The notes under the pieces: generated by a model
What the model was told of the DNA's origin: nothing
Database searches by the model: none
Seen by the model: the letters and a program-made list of their open reading frames with translations, nothing else
NCBI GenBank assembly: GCA_026126165.1
Contig: JAHCJR010000002.1
Coordinates: forward strand, 1-64,000
DNA length: 64,000 bases
Origin: Alphaproteobacteria bacterium
GTDB lineage: Bacteria > Pseudomonadota > Alphaproteobacteria > Ferrovibrionales > Ferrovibrionaceae
Direction of reading: 5' to 3'
Part shown: piece after piece, positions 9,904 through 12,094 of the stretch
Layout: the number at the start of each line of letters is the position of its first letter
Numbering within the stretch: position 1 is the first letter of the stretch
Program-made: the position numbers and the translations under genes

Positions 9904-10329
9904 ATGCCGAAGCGCACCGAAGCCGAACTGGAGACCATGATCGAGCAGGTCATGGCCATCCCCCTGCACCGTCATCTCGGGCTGGAGCTGGTCGAGCGCG
10001 AGGAGGGACGCGCACGCCTGCGCTTCCGCGCCGGGCCGGCAGTCCTGACGAATGTCGGCAGCGTGCATGGCGGCGTGCTCTCGCTGCTGCTCGAGCCGGC
10101 GGCGCTGCTCGCACTGCTGCCCCTGCTTGACGCCGGCGAGAGCGCGGCGACGGTCGATATCCATGTGGCATTTCCGGCCGCGCCCGAGGCCGGCCACTGG
10201 ATCGAGCTTGAAGGACGGGTGATTCGCCGCGCGCGCCAACTCGCCTTCTGCGAGGCGGAAGCACGCTCGGGCGGGCGCCTCTGCGCCGCCGCGCGCCTGA
10301 CCAAGGCGGTCCTCACCGCCCGGACGTGA
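9904..10329 (+). CDS. PaaI-type hotdog thioesterase
   Basis: A 141-residue single hotdog-domain protein of the PaaI/YdiI group that hydrolyses acyl-CoA thioesters. The core motif SVHGGVLSLLLEPAALLALL (about residues 52-71) contains the HGG turn and central helix with glutamate E63 in place of the usual aspartate or glutamate nucleophile/base; TVDIHVAFPAAPEAG and the final strand follow. The ATG at 9904 is preceded by GGGGAGGAAAA. Its stop codon lies inside the left 40-bp repeat that borders the Fic island, so before the insertion this gene converged directly on the TusA-like gene. Confidence 0.82.
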   Translation: MPKRTEAELETMIEQVMAIPLHRHLGLELVEREEGRARLRFRAGPAVLTNVGSVHGGVLSLLLEPAALLALLPLLDAGESAATVDIHVAFPAAPEAGHWIELEGRVIRRARQLAFCEAEARSGGRLCAAARLTKAVLTART

Positions 10330-10334
10330 TCAGC
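10295..10334. repeat. Left 40-bp direct repeat bordering the Fic island
   Basis: Forty bases identical to 11835-11874. The repeat contains the last codons and the TGA stop (10327-10329) of the thioesterase gene and a hairpin GGCGGT-CCTC-ACCGCC (10306-10321) that would be the shared terminator of the two convergent genes. It is either a target duplication or an attachment-site (attL/attR) pair made when the Fic island inserted. Confidence 0.9.
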
Positions 10335-10449
10335 ACTATGCGACCAACGAACCCATTGGACTTTCCACGCCTAGTTCCGTGCATTTCAGTCTTTCATTCC
10401 GTATCCTTCTGGCCTGACAACCAGTTTGAGAGAACAAGGGCCGCCGCAC

Positions 10450-11817
10450 ATGCGCTCTATAGCTGGCACCGACTATGTCGTAAGCGAGGATATGGTTCGG
10501 CAGTTGGAGCAGTTGGCTTTGCGCGTGGAAAGAATGCGGCAGGCGGGCAGGCTATCGCCAGATGCGCTTCGGCGCTTGAGGAAATACTTCCGGATTAAGA
10601 ACATATACAACTCAAACGCCATAGAAGGAAACATCCTCGATATCGGCGAAACTCGAATGGTCGTCGAACAAGGACTGACCCTGACCGGCCGGCCGCTGAA
10701 GGATCAGGCAGAGGCCAAGAACCTGTCGGAAGCCATCGACTACTTGGAGGAACTCGCGGCCGACCCAATTCGGCCTATCTCCGAAGCGGACATACGGCAA
10801 CTGCATTTTCTCGTTCTCAAGAACGTGAAAGATGCCGATGCAGGTGTCTACAGGGCGGTACAGGTCGAGATAGGCGGCTCCAAGTACATGCCTCCGGGGC
10901 CCGAATCAGTGCCGGCACAGATGGAACTGTTTTGCACTTGGCTTGCGCGACGCAGCGTGAAGGAAACCAAGACAGACATTCCGTCTGCCATACTCGATGC
11001 GGCGGCGGCGCATACATGGTTCGTCACCATTCATCCGTTTGTCGATGGCAACGGCAGGGTTGCCCGGTTGATTCTAAATCTCCTCCTGATGCGGAATGGA
11101 TGCCCAATAGCAATCGTGACCAAAGCCGATCGGGGCCGCTACTACGACGCACTTGAATTATCTCAAGAGTCGGATCTCACGGCATTCTTGGCCCTGATTA
11201 TCGAGTGCATGGATGAAAGCCTCGAAGAGTACGAACACGCGGTTCGAGAGCAGGTAGAGCATCAGGAATGGGCCAGTTCAATAGTAGAGAAGCTCGACAA
11301 GCCGCAGCGCTCCCGCGCAGAGAATGAGTACGAAGTCTGGCGAAACGCAATGGAACTGCTAAAGAGTGTATTCCAACAAACGTCAGGGCTCCTTGCTGCT
11401 GGCTCGACAACGACACAGGTCTGGTTCAAAGATTTTGGCAAGTTGGAATTCGAGAAATATTACGCTCTTAGATACAGGAAATCTGCAAAGCAGACTTGGT
11501 TCTTTCGCATCGACATTCGGAGTGGTGAGAAGACCGCCCGCTATCTCTTTTTCTTCGGTTCGCCGAGCGGTCGTTTCCCGAAAGATTCGGACGTCACGCT
11601 TCATGTTGCCCGAGAAGAACCGCCCGGTTCCTTCAAGTATAATCGGCTCGATGAATTGTCCGCGCCCAACGTGCCGAACCTGGTGGAGATTGGCTACGAC
11701 GCGAAACAGGAGAGTTTTGTTTCGCGCACCAAAGCGGGAAAGCTGTCGCAAACGAAAATCGAAATACTGTGTCGACATTTTTTCGAAGAAGTTACCAACC
11801 GACACTTCAGTTCCTGA
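10450..11817 (+). CDS. Fic/DOC family protein, predicted AMPylator
   Basis: A 455-residue Fic protein. The catalytic motif HPFVDGNGRVAR is intact (195-206), predicting transfer of AMP or another nucleotide-phosphate group to a hydroxyl side chain of a target protein. An inhibitory-helix motif SNAIEG (55-60; S/T-x3-E-G/N) precedes it, which makes it a class II, self-inhibited enzyme. About 250 residues follow the motif; the last 165 (from about 290) form a domain I do not recognise, with FRIDIRSGEKTARYLFFFGSP. The ATG at 10450 has AAGGG nine bases upstream and is preferred to an in-frame TTG at 10426. Codon use is foreign to the host. Confidence 0.9.
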   Translation: MRSIAGTDYVVSEDMVRQLEQLALRVERMRQAGRLSPDALRRLRKYFRIKNIYNSNAIEGNILDIGETRMVVEQGLTLTGRPLKDQAEAKNLSEAIDYLEELAADPIRPISEADIRQLHFLVLKNVKDADAGVYRAVQVEIGGSKYMPPGPESVPAQMELFCTWLARRSVKETKTDIPSAILDAAAAHTWFVTIHPFVDGNGRVARLILNLLLMRNGCPIAIVTKADRGRYYDALELSQESDLTAFLALIIECMDESLEEYEHAVREQVEHQEWASSIVEKLDKPQRSRAENEYEVWRNAMELLKSVFQQTSGLLAAGSTTTQVWFKDFGKLEFEKYYALRYRKSAKQTWFFRIDIRSGEKTARYLFFFGSPSGRFPKDSDVTLHVAREEPPGSFKYNRLDELSAPNVPNLVEIGYDAKQESFVSRTKAGKLSQTKIEILCRHFFEEVTNRHFSS

Positions 11818-11834
11818 GAACGTTATTATTGGGT

Positions 11835-11874
11835 GCCTGACCAAGGCGGTCCTCACCGCCCGGACGTGATCAGC
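11835..11874. repeat. Right 40-bp direct repeat bordering the Fic island
   Basis: Identical to 10295-10334. This copy supplies the stop (TCA at 11870-11872, read on minus) of the TusA-like gene and a second copy of the terminator hairpin (11846-11861). Matching ends exactly at both sides: bases flanking the 40-mer differ. Confidence 0.9.
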
Positions 11875-12094
11875 CGCCCTTGCGGATGAGAAAGCGGTAG
11901 ATGCCGTCGACCTCGCTGTTGGCCAGCATCTCGTGGCCCTGCGCCTCGCAGAAGGCGGCGAAATCCTCCGGCGCCGCCGGGTCCGTCGCCTCGATGGTCA
12001 GTTCCTCGCCCGGCGCCAGCTCGCGCATCGCCTTCTGCGTCTTGAGGACCGGCAGGGGGCAGGTCAGGCCCTTCGCATCGAGCAATCGCGGCAT
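11870..12094 (-). CDS. TusA-like sulfurtransferase
   Basis: A 74-residue single-domain TusA/YeeD protein. The catalytic CPxP motif is present in DAKGLTCPLPVLKTQKAM near residues 5-20, where the cysteine carries persulfide sulfur. The ATG at 12094 is chosen over a GTG at 12115 because GGAG stands seven bases before it. It is divergent from a YeeE/YedE sulfur transporter 112 bp away; YeeD-like and YeeE-like proteins together import thiosulfate, so a role in sulfur uptake or relay is likely. Its 3' end is within the right repeat of the Fic island. Confidence 0.87.
   Translation of the reverse strand: MPRLLDAKGLTCPLPVLKTQKAMRELAPGEELTIEATDPAAPEDFAAFCEAQGHEMLANSEVDGIYRFLIRKGG

Follow-up and report, generated by a model that had tools for sequence, protein, structure and literature searches.

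How does a single gene, accompanied by no recombinase, enter a chromosome so cleanly that the host genes on either side of it stay intact? Lone genes that resemble TA or defence genes move across phyla, and their clean entry into a chromosome usually remains invisible. The window analyzed here, a stretch of 64,000 nucleotides from an alphaproteobacterium (GenBank assembly GCA_026126165.1, contig JAHCJR010000002.1, positions 1 to 64,000 of the forward strand), raises this question at positions 10295–11874 in the numbering of the contig, where a gene for a Fic protein is enclosed by two copies of the end of a host gene. The source genome (G000) is a 3.43-Mb draft that is 81% complete. It was compared with a single relative, a sister species of the same genus (G001), which is represented by a draft that is 84% complete.

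Organization of the Fic Locus

The arrangement of the locus is as follows:

9904–10329, + strand: 4HBT thioesterase of 141 aa (ORF; Pfam 4HBT), the last 11 codons and the stop of which lie inside the left repeat
10295–10334: left 40-bp direct repeat, att-like, ending 5 bp beyond the thioesterase stop
10305–10320, and again 11845–11860: 6-bp inverted repeat GGCGGT-CCTC-ACCGCC within the thioesterase codons
10335–11834: inserted foreign segment of 1,500 bp, identified by its composition and by being missing from G001
10450–11817, + strand: gene for a class II Fic protein of 455 aa, with its ATG at 10450 (Pfam Fic, E 2.4e-20)
11835–11874: right 40-bp direct repeat, with the TusA stop in its final 5 bp
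11870–12094, − strand: TusA-family sulfurtransferase, convergent with the thioesterase (Pfam TusA, E 6e-24)

The two repeats are identical at 40 of 40 positions. The left copy contains the stop of the thioesterase (TGA, 10327–10329) and the right copy that of TusA (TCA, 11870–11872), and both genes are intact on either side of the insert. With a GC content of 0.53, the insert is richer in AT than its flanks (0.65 and 0.70). Its content, as judged from ORFs and Pfam, is one Fic gene; by the same means no recombinase was detected in the insert and no integrase in its near neighborhood, and the segment contains no transposase and no terminal inverted repeats. The original prediction, made from the letters of this DNA, had described these identical repeats, one stop in each of them, and an AT-rich interior that holds a single Fic gene but lacks a recombinase, and composition, ORFs, and Pfam bear this description out.

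Two further elements of that prediction did not withstand analysis. It had located the insertion in a terminator hairpin, but the inverted repeat belongs to the coding sequence of the thioesterase, there is no T-run that would correspond to a U-tract, and the terminator scan remained blank, so that an intrinsic terminator was rejected for either copy. The fold of the 40-mer scores z = −0.73 against shuffled sequences, and an inverted repeat of equal quality occurs in 6.7% of random genomic 40-mers. It had also envisaged other copies of the repeat with different cargo; when up to three mismatches are allowed, the whole draft genome of G000 holds the two copies described above and no others.

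An Empty Site in the Sister Species

With the insert removed, the window and contig C168 of G001 form a gap-free alignment of 3,176 bp that contains 92 mismatches (~97% identity). The sister species carries a single copy of the 40-bp sequence (39/40 matches) between a thioesterase, whose protein is 97% identical, and the same TusA gene. An empty 40-bp site in a relative had been set beforehand as the main test of the insertion, and this is the site that was found. Its thioesterase/TusA junction is formed by the abutting stops TGATCA, which is the product that had been foreseen for an excision and which also agrees with the ORFs of the window. By its sequence and its absence from G001, the Fic segment looks like a small horizontally acquired genomic island, which was either gained in the lineage of G000 or lost from the sister species; because one sister species was compared, gain and loss are not strictly separable.

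Further Islands in the Genus

The comparison of islands was a sample that covered ~1.05 Mb of G000 and ~0.97 Mb of G001, which have ~212 kb of collinear DNA in common. Within this collinear DNA, the length differences of at least 1 kb consist of the Fic island, an island with a HipA_C gene, an island with three ORFs, and one change in repeat number; all three islands are present in G000, and all three sites are empty in G001. The length difference at position ~35.6 kb of G000:C107, which was considered as an island, reflects the repeat number in a VCBS-type protein instead. In addition, all 2.0 Mb were scanned for exact direct repeats of at least 20 bp that lie 0.4–8 kb apart, and the hits were ranked by their drop in GC: the top ranks are occupied by a five-gene island, the Fic island, the three-ORF island, and an island at the acs gene of G001. 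As a control, the reversed sequence (2.0 Mb) yielded 0 pairs of exact 20-mers at a distance of 0.4–8 kb, which excludes a chance origin of the repeats. Three more 20-kb comparisons revealed no clean new island.

What is new here is that at least four more islands of the genus are likewise small, rich in AT, and devoid of a recombinase; their direct repeats, 18–166 bp long, stem from different host gene ends:

G000:C151:29005–31391: single HipA_C-domain gene; 18-bp repeat that is the exact 3′ end of tRNA-Arg(TCT); site empty in G001
G000:C107:58995–61022: three ORFs; 107-bp repeats (103/107 identical) at a convergent gene junction; site empty in G001
G000:C107:24618–29705 and the region of G001:C1:46347: five genes; 109-bp repeat at the end of a lipoprotein gene; present in both species
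G001:C4:5401–6804: acs island; 166-bp repeats at the 3′ end of the acs gene

The islands differ in how their repeats and target genes have fared. The three-ORF island, in which one ORF has a weak HTH match, shortens its target gene, which encodes an N-formylglutamate amidohydrolase-like protein, by about 16 aa, and the differences between its repeat copies are mostly non-synonymous. The five-gene island carries an EamA transporter, a B12-binding radical SAM protein, a TenA-like protein, and others, and remnants of an IS3-type transposase can be read from translated ORFs at one of its ends. It is ~100% identical between the two species, while its flanks are ~95% identical, and the tract of low divergence extends about 0.9 kb beyond the left repeat; this pattern suggests that the island was recently exchanged, probably by homologous recombination. 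The acs island encodes a 176-aa ORF that matched no Pfam family. Its repeat copies differ by seven synonymous changes and one non-synonymous change at the edge, and since the differences are nearly all synonymous, both copies were presumably once working gene ends. A separate repeat of ~240 bp (G000:C118:42317–42556) is matched dozens of times in G001, once inside the acs island.

Each of the five islands is located at or near the 3′ end of a gene, and none of them encodes an integrase. No motif, no consistent inverted arms, and no recombinase core were seen in common among the five repeats. That five unrelated islands cluster in a single genus is more unusual than the Fic island itself.

Origin of the Fic Island

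The explanation that we rank first, and to which we give about an even chance, is an att-type integration at a gene 3′ end by an integrase that was lost or that acted in trans, as in a CIME. The 40-bp repeats would then be the attL- and attR-like ends of the island at the 3′ end of the thioesterase gene: the island may have arrived in circular form with its own copy of this gene end, and a single recombination between that copy and the chromosomal 3′ end, an exchange of the attP × attB type, would have inserted it. The tyrosine integrase might never have been part of the element and might have acted in trans, or it might have been deleted afterwards, leaving a CIME-like remnant. Ordinary homologous recombination in the flanks could then have spread the island among strains. 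Attachment sites in tDNAs and at gene 3′ ends are standard, and icd/e14 is a case of a tyrosine integrase acting at the 3′ end of a protein gene. An exchange between an element-borne and a chromosomal gene end is favored by the gene 3′-end positions of the islands, the tRNA site, the regenerated genes, and the synonymous divergence of the acs copies. The att-type reading is supported in particular by the island at tRNA-Arg(TCT), which has a textbook integrase site. The three-ORF island is less att-like, given its shortened target gene and the mostly non-synonymous differences between its copies, and at the Fic island the identity of the two 40-bp copies makes a carried-in end and a duplicated end indistinguishable.

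The recombination functions of the host bear on this reading from both sides. The tyrosine recombinases of G000 comprise two XerC/XerD-like proteins, which were recognized by sequence reading and not with a family model, and a fragment of 103 aa; there is also one match to a serine resolvase. The fragment (G000:C74:73053–73364) is situated in an AT-rich dip beside a tRNA-like sequence on the same contig as the Fic island and is, judging by these sequence features, a decayed tDNA island. Its survival indicates that integrase loss does happen here. What counts against the att-type reading is that the genome, 81% complete, yielded no functional tyrosine integrase beyond the XerC/XerD-like proteins, and that the phage, plasmid, and viral collections contain no attP-like copy of the 40-bp site but only weak chance matches. 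Moreover, because the five repeats have no common motif, one integrase would not suffice, and the several that would be required are all missing. The initial proposal of a non-autonomous element that relies on a recombinase elsewhere is strengthened by the four further islands of the genus, whereas a single trans-acting recombinase is not indicated, since the repeats of the islands differ in sequence.

Ranked second is an integration without a dedicated recombinase, which is possible but on the whole doubtful. Here, a circle or fragment with a short host-like piece would be incorporated by a single crossover, via RecA or a RecA-independent path, and would later be passed on by homologous exchange. 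This would agree with the lack of a recombinase in all five islands, with a host repertoire of integrases that is limited to Xer-like proteins and one fragment, and with repeats that are unrelated in sequence and variable in length. The pattern of the five-gene island shows that homologous exchange does occur, a ComEC-family gene is present, and the H47 island of Escherichia coli (PMC3191183, PMC5426353) and UCSs provide precedents for which such a path has been proposed. However, a repeat of 40 bp, and still more one of 18 bp, is very short for RecA, the first acquisition of a gene end by the element is left unexplained, and the site of the tRNA island matches integrase sites too closely. A generalization of this idea, which we regard as unlikely, is that some very small islands of the genus form a class that has always lacked a recombinase, and that each of them carries a copy of a host gene 3′ end and integrates there by a host recombination path. 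If this were true, single defence-type genes would be gained one by one at many different sites.

Our third explanation is a target duplication: a staggered break or a transposase-like cut would leave a long overhang that is filled around captured DNA, which results in a 40-bp duplication of the target. Some IS families make long duplications of variable length, and the identity of the two Fic copies, the varying repeat lengths, and the divergence of the three-ORF copies regardless of codons are in line with such an event. We nevertheless consider it quite unlikely, as the Fic segment has neither a transposase nor terminal inverted repeats, the acs copies differ mostly synonymously, and neither genome has a Ku protein; on this last point, capture by NHEJ via Ku was rejected as well. 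Finally, two genomes of the genus were examined and both are drafts, but vertical inheritance of a fixed tandem duplication that always held the Fic gene, or a chimeric contig, is very improbable in view of the exact empty site in the sister species, the occurrence of the C-terminal half of the Fic protein in a single one of 385 genomes from this class, and the real reads over both junctions that an assembler needs.

Relation to Known Systems

The original prediction raised the possibility of an undescribed integration class. Such a class is not needed, as integrase-less islands flanked by repeats are known in the form of CIMEs, the H47 island, and UCSs. A CIME is defined by missing integration and transfer genes and by the retention of attL and attR (PMC5704250). 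The Fic island likewise has attL/attR-like direct repeats and no integrase or transfer genes, but it measures only 1.5 kb with one gene, and no parent ICE or IME, integrase partner, or decayed transfer genes were seen. The H47 island is a 13-kb microcin cluster without a recombinase, bounded by repeats of 148 and 144 bp with 76% identity; its excision does not depend on RecA or on 16 known recombinases, with the caution of its authors that PCR chimeras are not fully excludable (PMC3191183, PMC5426353). Both islands are small and recombinase-free, have direct repeats and empty sites in natural strains, and would have to obtain any mobility from the host. They differ in that excision of H47 was seen by PCR, whereas the Fic island is known from sequence and its empty site comes from a different species, and in that the repeats of the Fic island are 40 bp long and identical. 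UCSs, described for resistance genes, are circle-forming segments that lie between direct repeats and contain no recombinase (PMC7843796). The Fic island corresponds to them in its recombinase-free organization between direct repeats and differs in its cargo and in its repeats, which are usually much longer in UCSs. It is smaller than all three of these systems and has a short perfect repeat.

Islander-type islands have a tyrosine integrase and a site at a gene 3′ end, restore this end upon integration, and leave the displaced copy on the far side (PMC4383910). The Fic island at the regenerated 3′ end of the thioesterase gene conforms to this scheme, of which the tRNA-Arg island is a textbook example; in contrast to the present islands, however, Islander-type islands normally encode their integrase. 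The genus offers fresh, datable cases in which there are empty sites and in which the att-like repeats derive from the ends of host genes. Should the islands be mobile without a recombinase of their own, they would serve as compact models of gene gain that needs none; should they be integrase-stripped remnants, they would show cargo outliving its vehicle.

The Fic Protein and Its Homologues

The inhibitory motif SNAIEG is found at residues 55–60 of the Fic protein and the catalytic motif HPFVDGNGRVAR at residues 195–206. Both motifs of class II Fic AMPylases, (S/T)xxxE(G/N) and HxFx(D/E)GNGRxxR, are intact in the window protein, and their cores are invariant across 22 homologues, which makes it likely that the protein is an active, self-inhibited AMPylase. 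Human FICD is the best PDB match both by sequence and by the fold of the predicted model (mean pLDDT 82.6), and the protein also matches the PADLOC SoFic and PDC-S04 models. With SoFic and FICD-type proteins it shares the class II Fic core, the inhibitory helix, and the intact catalytic motif; it differs from them by an additional conserved C-terminal domain (residues ~284–455, window positions 11259–11814), which is predicted with good confidence and has no match in Pfam or, by sequence and fold, in the PDB.

Full-length homologues with 42–65% identity occur in many phyla, including proteobacteria, cyanobacteria, and Chloroflexi. Nearly all of them are lone genes between core genes, with a GC content below that of their surroundings. 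The rarity of the C-terminal half within the class (1 of 385 genomes) points to patchy horizontal spread. The 22 other full-length Fic loci have neither an exact flanking repeat of at least 15 bp within 1 kb nor end sequences in common; on these grounds a Fic-specific mobile unit was rejected, and the repeats were assigned to the present event and its host, not to the Fic gene. The GC content of the lone Fic genes ranges from 0.37 to 0.53 in more GC-rich genomes of many phyla. In four Chloroflexi, the Fic gene occupies the same place beside a P-type ATPase and is still AT-rich.
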